The notes beneath the pieces are model-generated. The model saw only the letters and a program-made list of their open reading frames with translations. It did not search any database and had not been told where the DNA came from. Positions 3,274 through 13,766 of a DNA stretch of 17,069 nucleotides are shown here, in pieces. Location of the stretch: the NCBI GenBank assembly GCA_900498245.1, contig LS998015.1, forward strand, positions 543,416-560,484. Reading direction: 5' to 3'. This DNA is from Candidatus Zixiibacteriota bacterium. GTDB taxonomy: Bacteria > Zixibacteria > MSB-5A5 > GN15 > PGXB01. The number at the start of each line of letters is the position of its first letter. Within the stretch, counting starts at the first letter, position 1. A program made the position numbers and the translations under genes.

Positions 3274-6200
3274 TTATTCTTTGGTAGGCCGGCGCATTTC
3301 GCGGCGGAAACGCTGCTCGAAGATAGTATAGAGCACCGGAATGAAAAATAAAGTGAGAAAGGTTGAAACAGTCAGACCGCCGATAACCGCTATCGCCAGC
3401 GGAGCCTGGGTCGATTCACCCCCCAGTCCAATCGCCATAGGAACAAGTCCCAATACGGTAGCCAGTGAAGTCATAATAATCGGTTTTAAACGGGTGCTGC
3501 CGCCGGCCACGACCGCTTCGAACAGTTCCGTTCCCTGTATCCGCAGATGGTTAATATAATCAACCAGAAGGACACCATTACTCACCACAATACCGATCAT
3601 TATAATGATTCCCTGGAACGACGTGACCGAGAGCGTAGTGCCGGTAAGGAACAATGTCCAGAGCACCCCGACTAACCCCAGCGGGACAGTGAACATGATA
3701 ATAAAGGGATCAATCAGCGACTGGAACTGCGATGCCATCACCACGTAAACCAGCAATATGGCCAGCCCCAGGGCCAGTGCCAGCATACTGAAAGTCTGTT
3801 TCTGCTGCTCGATGTTGCCGGTCTGTTTAACCTCGAAACCGGGGGGAACGGTTAAAGTATCGAGATTTTTTTGTATATCGGAAGCAACACTCCCCAAATC
3901 GCGTCCCGTGACATTGCCGGTAACTTCAACCAGCCGCTGCTGATATTTACGGTCGATCTGAACCGGAGAAGTAGTTTTTTCGATGGTCGCAATATTTCCG
4001 AGGAGAACCTGCTGGCCGGTGGAAGTGGTAATGGCGATATTCTGGAGATCCTCGATGTGGGACCGAAAATCTTCATCGAGACGGACCAAGATATTGTACT
4101 GATTGCCTGTGGCCGGATCGCTGTAGAGCGACGCCACCGAGCCGTTTATCATGGTGTTGATAGTATTGGCGACCTCGCCGACGCTTATGCCCAAAACTCC
4201 GGCCCGCTCCCGATCCACTTTGACCCGCAGTTCCGGCAAATTGTCCTCCCGGCTAATCTGGATATCAGTGGCTCCCGGGACCGTTCGTACAATAGAAGCG
4301 ACTTTTTTCGCCAGGGCCGAACCGGTGTCGAGATCGAATCCTCTGATTTCAATATCAACCGGCGCCGATGAACCGAAATTCAGCAAGAACCTTAAGAATC
4401 CGCCGGGGTTGATAAAAATTGAAGCGCCGGGGAGAGCCATAAGTTTGGGACGAATGGCATTGACAATTTCAAAAACCGACCGCTTTCGTTGATCCTGAGG
4501 AACCAGCGCTACCTGCACACTGGCGGCATGGCTGCCGGAATTACGGCTGAAAAGATTGCCGCTTCGGGCCGACGGCGTTCCGATGTCGGAGATGATGGTC
4601 TGCATTTCGGGGACATTATCCTTAATGACTTTTTCGACTTGTTTTACAAAAGCATCGGTCACTTCCGCTCTGGTCCCGACCGGAAGTTTGACGGATACGC
4701 TGAACTGACCCTCATCCTGGTCGGGGAAAAATTCGGTGCCGATAAATTTAACCAGGCCGACAGAGAGTATCGCCAATCCGACTATCATGCCGATAACCAG
4801 ACGGCGATGATTCAGCGCCCAGCGCAGGGCGACCGTGTAACGGTCATCAATTTTATCAATAAGGTCGTGGGCCCAAATCCGCAGCCGCTCCGAAAGACGG
4901 CGCGACTGGCGATCCATCGGCTTTTCCGGAGGGAGAAATTTCATGCACATCAAAGGTGTCACCGTTCTTGAGACAAAGAAGGAACCGAAGAGAGCCACTG
5001 AAATAGTAACGGCCAGAGGGACAAAGAGAAGTTTGGCGATACCGGAAACAAAGACGAGGGGGAGAAAAACGATAACAGTGCTGAGGGTCGAGACAAAAAT
5101 CGGTGACGCGACTTCCTTGGCCGCGTCCAGGGTCGCCTGAAGTTTGGTCTGCCCCTCCGTTTTCCGATTATAATGGCGGGAAATGGCCTCCAGTTCGACA
5201 ATAGAATCGTCTACCAATCTTCCCACCGCCAAGGCCAGCCCACCAAATGTCATAATATTCAAAGTGGCGTTTCCAAAGCGGAACCAGATGAAAGCGATAA
5301 GTATGGATAGTGGTATGGCAACAATAATAATTAGCGTGCCGTGCAGATTCCTCAGGAAAATCAAGATTATAAACATGGCCAGGATGGCGCCGAACAGGGC
5401 TTCATTTTTCAGGCCCGATATGGTCTGCTTGATATAGAGCGACTGATCGAAGGAAAGGGACATTTTAACCTTGTCGGGCACATCCGCCAATTTCGGCAAG
5501 GCGCGAAGGACATTATCGACCACCGCGACCGTGTTGGCGCTGGCCATCTTCTGAACCCGTAAGGTCACTCCCGGCTGACCATTGATGCGGACAATTTCGG
5601 TCTGCTCCTGATAACTGTCTTCCACTTTGGCTATATCGCGAATTCGAATCGGCACCCCGTTAATATTCTGAATGACAATATTTTCGATCGGCTTAACCAC
5701 ATTGAAACGACTCTCGGTCTTAAGAGAATAGTCGAAAATTCCGGTTTTGAGATCGCCCGAAGGGATAATCAGGTTGGAATTGGCGATAGCATTAAGAACC
5801 GCTTGGACCGGAAGTTTCAAACCCTGAATGCGATTTCGGTTTAAAGTAACATGGATTTCCCGGATCCGTCCCCCGGTAACAGCGGCCGAAGCCACGCCGG
5901 GGAGATGCTCTATTTGGGGTTCGATAGTATTGAGGGCCAGATCATACAGGTCGCGCTCATCCATATCTCCGGAAACCACGATATTACAGACCGGCAAATT
6001 GGTGATATCGAAACGAAGCACCACCGGTTGCGAGACGCCGTCGGGCAACTGGTTCATGATGCGGTTGACCCGCTGGACAACATCGACCAGGCCGACATCA
6101 AGGTTGGCATCCCAGTTGAAATTGATCCGAACTTGAGAGACCCCTTCCCGTGTCGAAGACTGCACATAATCGACATCATTGACCGAACTGACCGCCCGTT

Positions 6201-7994: not shown

Positions 7995-8936
7995 ATGATT
8001 AATAAGAAGGTAATTATCCATGAAGTGGGGCCTCGAGACGGCCTTCAGGTTGAAAAAGGGGTTGTTCCCCTCGACGAGAAAATACGCTGGATCGACGGAT
8101 TGATGAAGAGCGGTATCGATATCATTCAACTGGGATCATTTGTAAATCCGGAAAAGGTCCCGCAGATGGCCGATACCGACAAATTGTTCGCACATTACTC
8201 AAAAGCGGATCATAAAGAGGCGGATGTGATCCTGTCTGGATTGGTTTTGAATGAAAAAGGTCTGGAACGAGGGATGGCCTGCGGGGTCGATATGTTTTGT
8301 ATGGGGGTATCGGCCAGCGAAACTCACAGCCGGAAAAATACCGGAATGAGTCCTGCCGAAGCGCTGGGCCGGATCATTCCGATGGCCAAATCGGCTGTTT
8401 CCTCGGGGAAGCGGGTGCAGGTTTCGGTCCAATCGGCCTTTGGCTGCGGTTTTGAGGGGCCAATTTCGCAAGAGACCGTCCTCAGGATAGTAAAAGAATA
8501 TCTTGCCGCCGGATTGATCAACATAAGTTTAGCCGATACCGCGGGGCACGCCAACCCGTTTCAGGTCGAGGAGCTGTATCATGCCATTCGCGAACTGGAG
8601 CCAAAAGTCGAACTGGCCTGTCACTTTCATAATACCTATGGTCTGGGACTGGCCAATTGCTACGCCGCTCTGAAGGCCGGGGTGACATCGTTCGAATCCG
8701 CTTTCGGCGGGTTGGGCGGCTGCCCCTTCACGAAACTCCCGGCGGGGAATGTCAGCACTGAAGACTTAGTGCATTCCTTACAGCGGATGGGATACCGCAA
8801 AGATATCCGACTTTCGGTTCTTCTCGATGTGGCTCGGCAGGTGGCGGCCTTTTTCAACCGCGACCTGCCCGGTCTTATTCTCAAGTCGGGGTCAATTGTT
8901 GATTTCAAGAAAAACGAACGTAAAGAGGCAATATGA
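7995..8936 (+). CDS. HMG-CoA-lyase-like CoA-ester aldolase (possible citramalyl-CoA-type lyase)
   Basis: A 313-residue cytosolic DRE-TIM metallolyase (HMGL-like superfamily), which splits a 3-hydroxyacyl-CoA with a tertiary alcohol. HMG-CoA lyase itself gives acetyl-CoA and acetoacetate. Catalytic landmarks: EVGPRDGLQ (10-18; Arg14, Asp15), SFVNPEKVPQMADTD (48-62), metal ligands HFHNTYG (His210, His212), the mobile-loop Cys in GGLGGCPF (Cys243), and GNVSTEDLVH (Asn252). One deviation stands out: human HMG-CoA lyase has the catalytic Glu72 in the sequence IETTSFV, whereas this protein reads IQLGSFV, with Gln45. Together with its partners this suggests a related substrate such as citramalyl-CoA. 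Known (R)-citramalyl-CoA lyase activity has been linked to HMGL-like proteins in Chloroflexus, to my recollection. The start has a strong ribosome site (AAAGGTGG). The stop overlaps the next ATG by four bases (ATGA), so the two are translationally coupled. The HMGL family call is firm; the substrate is inferred. Confidence 0.88.
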   Translation: MINKKVIIHEVGPRDGLQVEKGVVPLDEKIRWIDGLMKSGIDIIQLGSFVNPEKVPQMADTDKLFAHYSKADHKEADVILSGLVLNEKGLERGMACGVDMFCMGVSASETHSRKNTGMSPAEALGRIIPMAKSAVSSGKRVQVSVQSAFGCGFEGPISQETVLRIVKEYLAAGLINISLADTAGHANPFQVEELYHAIRELEPKVELACHFHNTYGLGLANCYAALKAGVTSFESAFGGLGGCPFTKLPAGNVSTEDLVHSLQRMGYRKDIRLSVLLDVARQVAAFFNRDLPGLILKSGSIVDFKKNERKEAI

Positions 8937-10126
8937 AACTTCTGGAAAAAATCCGTGTCCTTGATATGACCAATGTCCTCTCCGGGCCGTTCGCGACCGT
9001 GCATTTGGCGCTTCTCGGAGCGGAAGTAATAAAGATTGAAAATCCTGACGGGGGCGATCTGGCCCGCAGACTGGGGAATGTCCCCAGTCTCAACAAGGAT
9101 CTGATGGGGACCAGTTTTCTGGCGCAAAATGCCAACAAGAAATCGATGACTCTTAATCTGAAAACCGAAGAGGGGAAAGAGATTTTTCGCCGATTGCTGA
9201 AAACCGCCGATGTGGTGGTGGAGAATTTCCGCCCGGCGGTAATGGCTCGTCTCGGTTTTTCCTATGAAGAGATCAGCAAAATTAATCCCCGCATTGTTTT
9301 CTGCGCTATCTCCGGATTCGGGCAGACCGGCCCCGACGCCTTCAAACCGGCCTACGATCAGATCATCCAGGGTCTGTCGGGGGCGATGGATGTCAATGGC
9401 GATGAACGTCTGCACCCTTTGCGGGCCGGCTTTCCGGTTTGTGATACGGTCGGAGGGCTGAATGCCGCTTTCGCCATAATGGCGGCGTTGTACCATCGCG
9501 AGCGGACCGGTGAGGGGCAGTTTATCGATATCGCCCTGCTTGATTCAATCATGCCGCTCATGGGTTGGGTGGCGGCCAATCTGCTTATCGGCGGCAAACC
9601 GCCGATACCGATGGGGAACGACAATTTCACCGCGGCTCCGTCGGGTGTCTTTCTCACAAAGGACGGGCATATCAATATCGCGGCCAACCAGCAGAAGCAG
9701 TGGGAAGATCTGGCCGATGAATTGGGGTTGCCGGAACTTAAAACCGATCCCCGCTTTCAGGAACGGGATACCCGCAAGGCCAATAGGAAGCTTCTGACGC
9801 CGCTATTGGAGGAAAAACTGAAAACCAAATCGACCGAGCATTGGGTCAAGGTCCTTAATGATAAGGGGATACCGACCGGCGACATTCTCGATCTGAACAA
9901 AGCTCTCAACAGCGAACAGATTAAGCATCGGGAAACGATTGTCGATATCAAAGAACCGAAAATCGGCAATATCAAACTTTTCAACCTGTCGGCTAAATTT
10001 TCCAAGACGCCGGCCAAAATCGAAACGCCGCCGCCGCGCCTGTCGGAACATACCGAAGAAATTCTCACCCAGATCGGCTACAGCAAAGATGATTTAAAGG
10101 GCCTGAAAGAAAAAATGGTGATCTGA
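8933..10126 (+). CDS. Class III (CaiB/BaiF, L-carnitine dehydratase family) CoA-transferase
   Basis: A 397-residue cytosolic family III CoA-transferase that moves CoA from a donor such as succinyl-CoA to a carboxylic acid. The N-terminal Rossmann-like part has LEKIRVLDMTNVLSGPFATVHL and the GAEVIKIENPDGGD (29-42) motif. NKKSMTLNLKTEEG (68-81), VVENFRPAVMARLG (95-108), GFGQTGP (128-134) and YDQIIQGLSG (141-150) are diagnostic. The catalytic Asp, which forms the acyl anhydride in formyl-CoA transferase (D169), aligns with Asp171 in GFPVCDTVGG. Length is normal (~390-430). The ATG overlaps the lyase stop, and a 40-bp gap precedes the large hydro-lyase subunit. Family members include succinyl-CoA:citramalate, :itaconate and :mesaconate transferases. 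In this operon the likely role is to activate the hydroxy acid made by the LeuCD-like enzyme for cleavage by the lyase. Donor and acceptor identity cannot be read from sequence. Confidence 0.92.
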   Translation: MKLLEKIRVLDMTNVLSGPFATVHLALLGAEVIKIENPDGGDLARRLGNVPSLNKDLMGTSFLAQNANKKSMTLNLKTEEGKEIFRRLLKTADVVVENFRPAVMARLGFSYEEISKINPRIVFCAISGFGQTGPDAFKPAYDQIIQGLSGAMDVNGDERLHPLRAGFPVCDTVGGLNAAFAIMAALYHRERTGEGQFIDIALLDSIMPLMGWVAANLLIGGKPPIPMGNDNFTAAPSGVFLTKDGHINIAANQQKQWEDLADELGLPELKTDPRFQERDTRKANRKLLTPLLEEKLKTKSTEHWVKVLNDKGIPTGDILDLNKALNSEQIKHRETIVDIKEPKIGNIKLFNLSAKFSKTPAKIETPPPRLSEHTEEILTQIGYSKDDLKGLKEKMVI

Positions 10127-10166
10127 TGTATAATGATATGACAATTACACTTGAGGAGTTGATATA

Positions 10167-11456
10167 ATGGGAATGACCTACGTCCAAAAAGTAATCGCCA
10201 GGGCCTGCGGTAAGCAAGCGGTCGCGGTTGGCGATGTGGTCGAGCCGGAAGTGCATCTGGCCATGTCGCACGAAAACGGCGCTTTGGTGATGAACCAGTT
10301 TGCCGAAATCTACAAGGGAACCGGAGCCGAGGCGAAAATCTGGAACCCGGATCGGATCGCCATAATTCTGGATCATCGCGTCCCGGCCGAAAGTTCCAAG
10401 ACCGCCACCAATCAGAAAAAACTGCGGGAATTTGTCGAGAAGCAGGGGATCAAGAAATTCCACGATATTCGTGGCGATGAAGGCGGTATCTGCCACCAGA
10501 TTCTCCCCGAGTACGGTTATGTCCGTCCGGGATATGTCGTTGTCGGAACCGACAGCCATACTACCAGCCACGGGGCGCTCGGCGCGTTCGCGTTCGGCAT
10601 CGGCGCCACCGAGATGGCGTCGGTATGGGCCCTGGGAAATATTCTCAATGTCGAGGTGCCGGCGACCATCAAAGTGAATGTCACCGGCAAGTTCCAGCCG
10701 CAGGTCGGGGCCAAGGACCTGATCCTGCATGTCATTGGGAAATTGACCGCCGAAGGGGCCAATTTCAAGGTGCTGGAGTTCCACGGCGAGACCATCAAGC
10801 ATATGCCGACTTCGGGACGGCTCACCATCTGCAACATGGCGGTCGAGGCCGGCGCCACCAGCGGTATTGTCCCGCCCGACGAGGAAACGCTGCACTATCT
10901 GAAAAATACCGCCGGGGTAAAAGACAAAATCGAAATTTTCGGTCCCGACAAAGACGCCGAGTACGCGCAGGTGCTCGATATCGATGTGTCCAAGATGGGG
11001 CCGCAGATCGCCTGCCCGCACACGGTCGATAATATCAAGACGGTCGAAGAAGTCTCCGGAAAGAAAGTGAACCAGATCGTTATCGGGTCATGCACCAACG
11101 GCCGGCTCGATGATCTGGCGGCCGCGGCCAAAATTCTCAAAGGGAAGAAAGTGGCCCGAGGCACGCGCATGCTGGTTTTTCCGGCCTCGTGGCGGATATA
11201 TAATGAGGCGATGGAGAAAGGGTATCTCTCCGATCTGGCCAAAGCCGGCGCCGTGATATGCAATCCCGGATGCGGCCCCTGCCTGGGGGTGCATCAGGGG
11301 GCCCTGGGGGACCAGGAGACGGCTCTGGCCACCACCAACCGCAATTTCAAGGGGCGGATGGGGAACCCCAACGCGGAAGTGTTTCTCTGTTCACCCGAAG
11401 TGGCCGCCGCCAGCGCCGTGACCGGGGTCATTTCCGATCCCAGAGGAGGTCGTTAA
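10167..11456 (+). CDS. leuC: Aconitase-superfamily hydro-lyase, large subunit (LeuC/HacA-like)
   Basis: A 429-residue [4Fe-4S] hydro-lyase large subunit of the short archaeal-type LeuC/HacA/DmdA group, which isomerises or hydrates malate derivatives. Cluster ligands are Cys309 (IGSCTNGR) and Cys369/Cys372 (NPGCGPCLG). Other signatures include ILDHRVPAES (67-76), GICHQILPE (107-115), VVGTDSHTTSHGALGAFAFG (125-144) and TTNRNFKGRMG (389-399). The segment after the first Cys reads LVFPASWRIYNEAMEKG, where leucine-pathway LeuC usually has a PGSxxVY pattern, hinting at a different substrate. GAGGAG (10153-10158) lies 8 bases before ATG 10167. The stop is one base from the ATG of the small subunit. 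Candidate substrates by homology: isopropylmalate, citramalate/citraconate/methylmalate, homocitrate or dimethylmaleate. The leuC symbol denotes family only; no leuA or leuB is present here. Confidence 0.9.
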   Translation: MGMTYVQKVIARACGKQAVAVGDVVEPEVHLAMSHENGALVMNQFAEIYKGTGAEAKIWNPDRIAIILDHRVPAESSKTATNQKKLREFVEKQGIKKFHDIRGDEGGICHQILPEYGYVRPGYVVVGTDSHTTSHGALGAFAFGIGATEMASVWALGNILNVEVPATIKVNVTGKFQPQVGAKDLILHVIGKLTAEGANFKVLEFHGETIKHMPTSGRLTICNMAVEAGATSGIVPPDEETLHYLKNTAGVKDKIEIFGPDKDAEYAQVLDIDVSKMGPQIACPHTVDNIKTVEEVSGKKVNQIVIGSCTNGRLDDLAAAAKILKGKKVARGTRMLVFPASWRIYNEAMEKGYLSDLAKAGAVICNPGCGPCLGVHQGALGDQETALATTNRNFKGRMGNPNAEVFLCSPEVAAASAVTGVISDPRGGR

Positions 11457-11457
11457 G

Positions 11458-11955
11458 ATGAGTAAAGTCGTATTCAAAACCGGTGATGATGTTTCCACCG
11501 ATATTATATATCCCGGACGGTACATGGCGACGGTACTTCCGACCGAGACCCCGCAGTATGCGTTCGCCGACAACACCGAGTTGAACAAAAAACTGAAAGC
11601 GGGCGAGATTCCGAAGGGAAGCGTGATTGTGGCGGGGCAGAATTTCGGCTGCGGGTCGTCGCGCGAGCAGGCGGCGTCGTGCCTCAAAGGGTACGATCTG
11701 ACGGTGGTGGCCAAGCATTTTGCCCGGATATTTTTGCAGAATTCGATCAATCTCGGGTTGAACATGGTGATCTGCCCCGATATCGAGGCCGATGAAGGGG
11801 ACGAACTGGAATTCGACGGACAGCAGGTGATCAACAAGACGTCGGGCAAGAGTTTTAAGACGGTGCCGCTTCCGAAGGCCCGGCAGGCGATAATCGACGC
11901 CGGCGGACTGGTACCGTACACCCGCAATCTCCTTCTGCAAAGGATGAAGAAATAG
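11458..11955 (+). CDS. leuD: Aconitase-superfamily hydro-lyase, small subunit (LeuD/HacB-like)
   Basis: A 165-residue swivelling subunit that closes over the large subunit's cluster and supplies catalytic Ser and Arg residues. The signature GCGSSRE (64-70) is intact; by alignment with aconitase GSSREH, Ser67 should be the catalytic base and Arg69 a substrate-binding residue. AKHFARIFLQNSINLGLNMV matches the usual SFARIFxRNAINxGL region. The substrate-specificity loop after GDDVSTDIIYPG reads RYMAT (21-25). Characterised archaeal enzymes have YLRT in homoaconitase and YLVY/YLVM-like loops in isopropylmalate isomerase, so this subunit matches neither class. The gene begins one base after the large subunit's stop, with GAGGTCG just upstream inside the coding end of leuC. 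A strong terminator follows 27 bases after the stop, so this is the last gene of the operon. Confidence 0.9.
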   Translation: MSKVVFKTGDDVSTDIIYPGRYMATVLPTETPQYAFADNTELNKKLKAGEIPKGSVIVAGQNFGCGSSREQAASCLKGYDLTVVAKHFARIFLQNSINLGLNMVICPDIEADEGDELEFDGQQVINKTSGKSFKTVPLPKARQAIIDAGGLVPYTRNLLLQRMKK

Positions 11956-11981: not shown

Positions 11982-12012
11982 CCCCGGTGCCTGACGGTGC
12001 CGGGGCGTTTTT
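11982..12012 (+). terminator. Intrinsic terminator of the lyase/CoA-transferase/LeuCD operon
   Basis: CCCCGGTGCC (11982-11991) pairs with GGTGCCGGGG (11996-12005) over 10 positions (two G-U pairs in RNA) around a TGAC tetraloop. CG and a T5 tract (12008-12012) follow. It is the strongest classical terminator in the window and defines the end of the four-gene operon. Confidence 0.85.
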
Positions 12013-12878: not shown

Positions 12879-13766
12879 TTAATCTTTAACACATCGAATT
12901 GAAAAGCCATCCTGTTTCATGGTATAGCTTGCATCGCATCTTGAATTTCCATGATAGAGGGACCAGTAAAAGGCTTCACGGATATTGCTTTCTGTGGCAG
13001 TCCAAAGGCCAGCATAGAATGGCATGCCGCCATAGTCATCTACGATATCGCGAAAGCCACCGGGCAATCCGCAAAAACCGCTCTCATTGGTCGCAGTGGG
13101 ATCGGGACTGGTCCAATGTGTAGTGTCCTTCATCTTTCCACCGGCAGAATTCCCGCCTCCAAGAATGTCAATTAAGATTTGCCATTCATCCTGACTGGGG
13201 ACATGCCAGCCATCGGGCGCAATATTGCGGGTATCATTTACTGCCTGCCAATTGTACATCCGGCCATAATCATCGACGAAAATATCATTATTGAAGTAAC
13301 TACAATAGGCTCCCGTAGAAAGATGGAACCAATCATCATAATCAGGGACTTTTTGTATTGAGTCGCCATTGCGGTAATGTGTGACTTTGAGATTTTGCGC
13401 CATCCAGACTTGCCCATCGGAGCAATTTGGTGCATCGCCACCATAGTATAAGTAATCTATTAAATAAATTATATCACTAATATCTATTTTGCCGGAATGA
13501 TCCACATCGGCAGATGAGCCAATGGCAACGGTATTATATATATTGCCGTCATAATCCGTTATCGTGCCTTTCGGTTGCGAAATGAACTGTGGCGTTGAGC
13601 CCGTCTTATAGAGATAATTTATGACATAGGCAACATCCATAATATTTATTGACCCGGAATTGTTGACATCGCCGCATCCCCCGGCAAAGGTGTGGAGCGA
13701 AAATATAGATAGGTGGACAATATTGATTAGCAGAAGACTCCAAACGGCCTTACGAAAGAAACTCAT
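12879..13766 (-). CDS. Secreted dockerin-like / FISUMP-domain protein
   Basis: A 295-residue exported protein. Residues 1-28 are a signal peptide (basic FFRK start, hydrophobic core, TFA before GG). A first dockerin-like calcium-binding repeat follows at 31-56 (GDVNNSGSINIMDVAYVINY). Residues 67-83 (GTITDYDGNIYNTVAIG) resemble the opening of the Fibrobacter succinogenes major paralogous (FISUMP) domain. A second dockerin-like repeat lies at 86-112 (ADVDHSGKIDISDIIYLIDY), and the rest of FISUMP at 118-293 has VWMAQNLKVTHYRNGD, YNWQAVND, APDGWHVPSQDEW and a final GFSIRCVKD. In usual FISUMP proteins the TVxIG strand runs directly into QVWMAxNL, so the second dockerin repeat interrupts the domain here. 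FISUMP function is unknown; surface or cell-envelope display is likely. ATG 13766 has only a weak ribosome site. The gene is monocistronic and surrounded by repeats. Confidence 0.9.
   Translation of the reverse strand: MSFFRKAVWSLLLINIVHLSIFSLHTFAGGCGDVNNSGSINIMDVAYVINYLYKTGSTPQFISQPKGTITDYDGNIYNTVAIGSSADVDHSGKIDISDIIYLIDYLYYGGDAPNCSDGQVWMAQNLKVTHYRNGDSIQKVPDYDDWFHLSTGAYCSYFNNDIFVDDYGRMYNWQAVNDTRNIAPDGWHVPSQDEWQILIDILGGGNSAGGKMKDTTHWTSPDPTATNESGFCGLPGGFRDIVDDYGGMPFYAGLWTATESNIREAFYWSLYHGNSRCDASYTMKQDGFSIRCVKD

Follow-up and report, generated by a model that had tools for sequence, protein, structure and literature searches.

A conserved lyase, CoA-transferase and LeuCD operon of Zixibacteria that may encode most of a reversible route for 2-oxo-acid homologation

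The citramalate (pyruvate) pathway to isoleucine uses CimA, LeuCD and LeuB. Two coenzyme A (CoA) ester reactions of citramalate are also known from Chloroflexus aurantiacus: those of (R)-citramalyl-CoA lyase (EC 4.1.3.46), described as reversible, and of succinyl-CoA:(R)-citramalate CoA-transferase (EC 2.8.3.20) (PMC8307300). Here we describe a four-gene operon in a 17,069-nucleotide stretch of a Candidatus Zixiibacteriota bacterium genome (contig LS998015.1, positions 543,416 to 560,484; hereafter the window), encoding an HMGL-superfamily lyase, a class III CoA-transferase and the two subunits of a LeuCD-type hydro-lyase (Table 1). At roughly even chances, this operon would encode most of a reversible route that lengthens 2-oxo acids by way of a CoA ester, most likely in the pyruvate-to-2-oxobutyrate series.

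The proposed route would share its carbon skeletons and the LeuCD and LeuB families with the citramalate pathway. However, the operon has no CimA; its lyase and CoA-transferase would keep the thioester and make the first step reversible. In addition, most of the genomes carrying the operon lack IlvD, so that the route would not supply isoleucine there. The C. aurantiacus pair carries out the reactions proposed for the operon lyase and transferase (PMC8307300); the operon adds LeuCD and, mostly, LeuB. The degradation of itaconate and (S)-citramalate by Ict, Ich and Ccl likewise employs a CoA-transferase and a lyase, converting citramalyl-CoA to acetyl-CoA and pyruvate. There, the lyase is (S)-specific and of the CitE type, and an enoyl-CoA hydratase acts on the CoA ester; here, a free-acid hydro-lyase and an HMGL-family lyase are proposed. 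The nearest named families of the lyase and the transferase are hydroxymethylglutaryl-CoA (HMG-CoA) lyase (LiuE/MvaB) and human SUGCT, respectively, but the operon lyase has replacements at the Glu72 and Tyr167 sites and no leucine degradation genes are linked to it. DmdAB, the 2,3-dimethylmaleate hydratase of nicotinate fermentation, is a LeuCD/DmdAB-type hydro-lyase in a catabolic operon. That route cleaves its product with an isocitrate-lyase-family enzyme and without a CoA ester; such a gene was seen here in only one locus (L086). The reaction types are thus known, and we did not find their combination, or a description of this gene set, in the open-access papers we searched.

Table 1. Positions of the operon genes and of the putative terminator in the window
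Feature	Position	Strand	Basis
HMGL-superfamily acyl-CoA lyase, 313 amino acids	7995..8936	+	Open reading frame, HMGL-like 142 bits
Class III (CaiB/Frc) CoA-transferase, 397 amino acids	8933..10126	+	Open reading frame, CoA_transf_3 (PF02515) 414 bits
LeuC/HacA-family hydro-lyase large subunit, 429 amino acids	10167..11456	+	Open reading frame, Aconitase 345 bits
LeuD/DmdB-family hydro-lyase small subunit, 165 amino acids	11458..11955	+	Open reading frame, Aconitase_C 49 bits
Intrinsic-terminator-like hairpin followed by a T-run, operon end	11982..12005	+	Terminator scan

The lyase and CoA-transferase genes overlap by 4 bases (ATGA), a gap of 40 bp precedes leuC, and leuC and leuD are separated by 1 bp. 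Purine-rich ribosome-binding sites were read by eye before the lyase, leuC and leuD genes. The hairpin contains 10 pairs, 8 of them G-C, and was ranked top in the terminator scan of the region. The Pfam scores of all four proteins exceed the curated cut-offs. In NCBIfam, they pass subfamily models only (HMG-CoA lyase, LeuC/HacA and LeuD/DmdB), and no equivalog cut-off was reached for LeuC, LeuD, homoaconitase or any named CoA-transferase. The genes, families, gaps and shared terminator are therefore as an earlier sequence-only reading of the window had claimed.

When 84,980 species genomes were scanned, 315 lyase relatives were obtained, and the best 80 loci were kept for all locus counts; neighbour counts take in only those with enough flank. 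The CoA-transferase adjoins the lyase on its downstream side in 67 of 68 loci, the arrangement of an HMGL-family lyase next to a class III transferase that is also expected for the citramalate enzyme pair. Genes for leuC and leuD were found nearby in 44/52 and 44/51 loci, respectively, which bears out the co-occurrence of the four families. Within Zixibacteria, a close lyase relative (62-90% identity) is present in 17 further genomes, and on contigs of sufficient length the lyase gene is followed by those for the transferase, LeuC and LeuD in that order, in one case with a 2.4-kb insert. The 80 loci span more than 10 phyla: by record title, Zixibacteria, Chloroflexota (Anaerolineae), Acidobacteriota, Aminicenantes, Ignavibacteria, Bacteroidota, Chlorobiaceae, Gemmatimonadota, Calditrichota, Krumholzibacteriia, Armatimonadota, Planctomycetota, Eisenbacteria, Chrysiogenales and others. 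It should be mentioned that all or nearly all are metagenome-assembled (most record titles state this, and a few name a binned assembly instead) and that single-contig placements such as "Bacillota" or "proteobacterium" might be binning errors. Since the gene order recurs in other genera, families and phyla, a chance arrangement is excluded. Catalytic residues are retained in the lyase (except at the Glu72 and Tyr167 sites), LeuC and the CoA-transferase. As judged from gene order and these residues, the set forms a genuine unit that is tightly conserved and functionally intact.

Clustering of the neighbour proteins gave a sole further recurrent family, a LeuB-like β-decarboxylating dehydrogenase of the isocitrate/isopropylmalate family. 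Its gene lies directly upstream of the lyase gene in 47 of 69 loci and is missing mainly in Zixibacteria. With this gene, the unit would form a full chain between a 2-oxo acid plus acetyl-CoA and the next longer 2-oxo acid plus CO2. The sequence-only reading had proposed that a branched dicarboxylic acid is cleaved by a complete pathway; the unit is real, but this reading did not include the fifth gene, with which the unit may instead be a reversible pathway linking two 2-oxo acids. In the window genome, the sole LeuB-like candidate is an unlinked homologue (G000:C1:2404499-2405614; 60% identical). A match to it occurs in 121 of 132 Zixibacteria genomes, with or without the operon, and because it is near-universal in the phylum we did not accept it as a proven fifth member. 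A second LeuB- or isocitrate-dehydrogenase-like enzyme, nearly universal in Zixibacteria, was observed at L067:8497-9615 (- strand); it shares the Ser-Pro-Ile-Val pocket, with Glu-Lys-Pro-Asn in place of His-Lys-Ala-Asn.

In the proposed route, the lyase would condense acetyl-CoA with a 2-oxo acid to 2-hydroxy-2-alkylsuccinyl-CoA, and the class III CoA-transferase would exchange this ester with succinate, yielding the free alkylmalate and succinyl-CoA. These two enzymes would stand in for the one-way synthase LeuA or CimA. LeuCD would then interconvert 2-alkylmalate, alkylmaleate and 3-alkylmalate, and the LeuB-like enzyme would convert 3-alkylmalate with NAD(P)+ to CO2 and a 2-oxo acid one carbon longer. 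The most likely series would be pyruvate, (R)-citramalyl-CoA, (R)-citramalate, citraconate, 3-methylmalate and 2-oxobutyrate. All steps are reversible in principle, and the order LeuCD, CoA-transferase, lyase, ending in acetyl-CoA and a 2-oxo acid, seems the best reading of the four genes, as had been suggested. We infer the substrate, its stereochemistry, the CoA donor, the direction and, in the window genome, the enzyme of the LeuB step.

A review of HMG-CoA lyase lists Arg41, Glu72, Tyr167 and Cys266 as most important for catalysis, with Asp42, Asn275, His233 and His235 binding the metal (PMC6941031). When the operon lyases were mapped onto these positions by sequence alignment (33-40% identity), the equivalents of Asp42, His233, His235, Asn275, Arg41 and Cys266 were invariant in 77/77 sequences; in the window lyase they are the Mg ligands D15, H210, H212 and N252 and the catalytic R14 and C243. 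The Glu72 site is Gln in all 77 (Q45 in the window lyase), and the Tyr167 site is Ser in 76 of 77 (S144). In the reference lyases, Glu is present at the former site in 7/7 and Tyr at the latter in 6/7; this small reference set comprises two PDB sequences taken from printed alignments and five sister-Zixibacteria lyases, of which three are encoded in carboxylase clusters. Positions 142, 146, 147, 183, 185 and 246 (window numbering) are also fixed, with residues unlike those of the references. In a quick tree, 78 operon lyases and the seven references fell on opposite sides of a branch (SH-like approximate likelihood-ratio test, SH-aLRT, 92). Because two of the four catalytic residues are replaced, the operon lyase is probably not an HMG-CoA lyase. 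The window protein is predicted to be a 2-hydroxy-2-alkylsuccinyl-CoA (citramalyl-CoA-like) lyase.

The window CoA-transferase contains the motif G-[F]-P-x-x-D-x-x-G-G, and G-F-P-x-C-D-T-V-G-G-L is present in 61/77 CoA-transferase matches, most of the remaining sequences being incomplete. It falls under the cut-off of every curated NCBIfam equivalog. The hydro-lyase consists of two separate subunits, as in the LeuCD/DmdAB type. Its LeuC carries the 4Fe-4S motifs SCTNGR and NPGCGPCLG with the three cluster cysteines; SCTNGR is present in 56 of 60 LeuC matches, and the others include incomplete sequences. Scores remain below the equivalog cut-offs both for LeuC (458 of 611 bits with TIGR02083; 255 of 560 with TIGR00170) and for LeuD (120 of 246 bits with TIGR02084; 43 of 116 with TIGR00171).

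The residues of the substrate-binding pockets favour a substrate whose side chain is nonpolar, such as citramalate or isopropylmalate. The LeuD substrate loop is RYMATV in the window and R[F/Y/H]MATV in all 54 copies scored, with Ala where homoaconitase has Arg. In Methanocaldococcus jannaschii, the isopropylmalate/citramalate isomerase has YLVY at this loop and homoaconitase has YLRT, of which Arg26 has reportedly been found by mutagenesis to confer preference for the γ-carboxylate. This Arg26-Thr27 signature does not occur in the operon LeuD copies. The pocket of the LeuB-like protein reads YRSPIVRMR in 48/48 readable copies (four were unreadable by pattern), so that SPI occupies the place of the Ser-x-Asn motif (Asn115) with which isocitrate dehydrogenase binds the γ-carboxylate. 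Since both pockets lack γ-carboxylate-binding residues, the citramalate- or methylmalate-like substrate suggested from the window is consistent with them. Among nonpolar substrates, citramalate is preferred because both of its CoA-ester reactions exist (PMC8307300).

Several points weigh against this interpretation. The residues used cannot distinguish methyl, ethyl and isopropyl side chains, and the enzymes of the operon group are known from sequence alone. The choice of citramalate leans on analogy with the Chloroflexus pair in its reactions and in its families, an HMGL-family lyase and a class III transferase. The Glu-to-Gln change in the lyase could be compatible with an unforeseen reaction. 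In 8 of 52 loci no leuC is nearby, and the unlinked LeuB-like gene of the window genome may belong elsewhere because it is near-universal in Zixibacteria regardless of the operon.

A larger side chain is a serious rival, though we consider it unlikely. Here 2-oxoisovalerate and acetyl-CoA would be linked through 2-isopropylmalyl-CoA, 2-isopropylmalate and 3-isopropylmalate to 2-oxoisocaproate, that is, the valine and leucine skeletons would be interconverted by a CoA-ester form of LeuABCD; an ethylmalate series would be analogous. The closest PDB match of LeuC is the M. jannaschii isopropylmalate/citramalate isomerase, and Ala in the LeuD loop together with Ile and Val in the LeuB pocket leaves room for bulk. 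Genes of VorB-type 2-oxo-acid:ferredoxin oxidoreductases (VorB being that for 2-oxoisovalerate) lie near six Ignavibacteria and Bacteroidota operons, and the single one scored against the model exceeded its cut-off; these neighbours fit either series. However, we know of no characterised 2-isopropylmalyl-CoA lyase or transferase, and three genomes (G140-G142) have IlvD and LeuA besides the operon, so that leucine synthesis there needs no operon.

An HMG route, in which LeuCD would hydrate methylglutaconate, the SUGCT-like transferase would form HMG-CoA and the lyase would release acetyl-CoA and acetoacetate, is improbable. The window lyase passes the subfamily model "hydroxymethylglutaryl-CoA lyase" (280 bits; cut-off 246), and the closest solved structure to the transferase is human SUGCT, the succinate--hydroxymethylglutarate CoA-transferase. 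In the window genome, an enoyl-CoA hydratase gene also accompanies a methylcrotonyl-CoA-carboxylase-like cluster (L068; G000:C1:2112000-2129000), and the operon lyase is the only PF00682 protein. Against this, the two replacements described above hold throughout the group, and the lyases that sister genomes encode next to carboxylase clusters show only 33-38% identity and lie across the branch of the quick tree. A β-decarboxylating dehydrogenase would have no role on HMG or methylglutaconate. By eye, the L068 cluster adjoins genes reading like HMG-CoA synthase, thiolase and a DUF35-type protein. Leucine breakdown in the window genome may thus end via HMG-CoA synthase instead of HMG-CoA lyase.

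Quite improbable is a tricarboxylate version with citryl-CoA or homocitryl-CoA lyase, CoA-transferase, aconitase or homoaconitase, and isocitrate or homoisocitrate dehydrogenase. The transferase family prefers dicarboxylates, and the LeuB-like protein scores best against homoisocitrate and isocitrate dehydrogenase models and solved isocitrate dehydrogenases, but all NCBIfam scores are under the equivalog cut-offs and the γ-carboxylate-binding residues are missing from both pockets. Moreover, single-chain aconitase-like proteins are already present in the window genome, as are a match to citrate synthase and, next to malate dehydrogenase, a canonical isocitrate dehydrogenase carrying Ser-Leu-Asn. 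Its other aconitase-family frames encode 656, 663 and 542 amino acids; the regions of the first two give both LeuC-like and LeuD-like matches, and the third gives a LeuC-like match only. Replacement of citrate synthase, considered since some sisters carry a synthase cluster instead of the operon, was rejected because of the citrate synthase match. That the unit serves to degrade an acid from the environment (citraconate, (R)-citramalate or dimethylmaleate), with LeuB as an accessory, is very improbable: the Zixibacteria unit is usually without a linked leuB and a PrpB/isocitrate-lyase-family gene in L086 would suit an alkylmalate substrate, but the clustering of neighbours at related loci gave no recurrent transporter or regulator, and the broad spread among sediment organisms and anaerobes, with active sites that hardly vary, is more like central metabolism than use of a niche substrate. 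In that Zixibacteria locus, a ROK-family protein accompanies the PrpB-family one, both inserted between transferase and leuC (3820-6125).

Plain leucine or isoleucine biosynthesis was rejected, and the unit does not serve ordinary leucine catabolism either; the sequence-only reading had likewise argued against leucine biosynthesis and catabolism. The window genome is a single contig of 3.5 Mb, 98.9% complete; its one PF00682 protein is the operon lyase itself, and therefore it has no LeuA, CimA or pyruvate carboxylase. IlvD (PF00920) was absent in 132/132 Zixibacteria genomes, with the control positive in 14/14 reference genomes, and in 13 of the 16 genomes with the operon that were accessed via their loci. 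The exceptions with IlvD and LeuA are the three genomes mentioned above. One of these, an Ignavibacteriae genome (G141; locus L134), has besides the operon a full classical cluster on one contig, read as ilvD, ilvB, ilvN, leuA, leuC, leuD, cimA, leuB and ilvC (tblastn for both synthases, leuC, leuD and leuB; the IlvD search for ilvD; by eye for the others). In that genome, the operon genes therefore form an additional set apart from the biosynthetic one. A separate leuCD set is thus present in this relative, but no other two-subunit set was found in the window genome. Absence of IlvD across Zixibacteria suggests that branched-chain amino-acid auxotrophy, or another route, is general in the phylum.

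Sister Zixibacteria without the operon (L185-L197; for example L188:3595-14399 and L190:3-17861) encode a LeuA/homocitrate-synthase-like protein, accompanied by separate leuC, leuD and, often, leuB genes. These clusters adjoin genes for 2-oxo-acid oxidoreductase, acyl-CoA dehydrogenase, enoyl-CoA hydratase, hydroxyacyl-CoA dehydrogenase, thiolase and ADP-forming acyl-CoA synthetase, and possibly represent 2-oxo-acid elongation feeding β-oxidation. Only one genome is shared between the 18 with the operon and the 32 with the synthase cluster (hypergeometric 0.035), and the synthase in it is a CimA-like protein; with genome lists set by hand and phylogeny as a confounder, mutual exclusion is only suggestive. 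Methylmalonyl-CoA mutase was found in 14/17 operon genomes, which is uninformative; it was not found in three draft operon genomes, two of them Anaerolineae or Chloroflexi. Downstream of the operon, the window encodes a secreted-looking protein (12879-13766, - strand) with dockerin type I and Fibrobacter succinogenes major domains.

Taken together, the sequence-only reading was right in outline and is partly supported: it lacked the fifth gene, and its substrate and direction were inferred. For the pyruvate-to-2-oxobutyrate series preferred here, a role in catabolism or central metabolism, between 2-oxobutyrate or propionyl-CoA and acetyl-CoA plus pyruvate, seems likelier than amino-acid biosynthesis because most operon genomes cannot turn 2-oxobutyrate into isoleucine. 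Only tentatively do we suggest a widespread, undescribed central pathway of uncultured bacteria, in which 2-oxobutyrate (propionyl-CoA) and CO2 would be reversibly linked to acetyl-CoA and pyruvate via LeuB, LeuCD, CoA-transferase and lyase. If true, this would be a thioester-conserving counterpart of the citramalate pathway, which could take part in oxidising propionate or threonine, or in taking up CO2, and so bypass the methylmalonyl-CoA route. A textbook one-way biosynthesis would then have a reversible CoA-ester form across more than 10 bacterial phyla of sediments and soils, in hosts mostly unable to make branched-chain amino acids. Automatic annotation, which names these genes as HMG-CoA lyase and leucine biosynthesis, would in that case lead to wrong predictions of auxotrophy and leucine metabolism.

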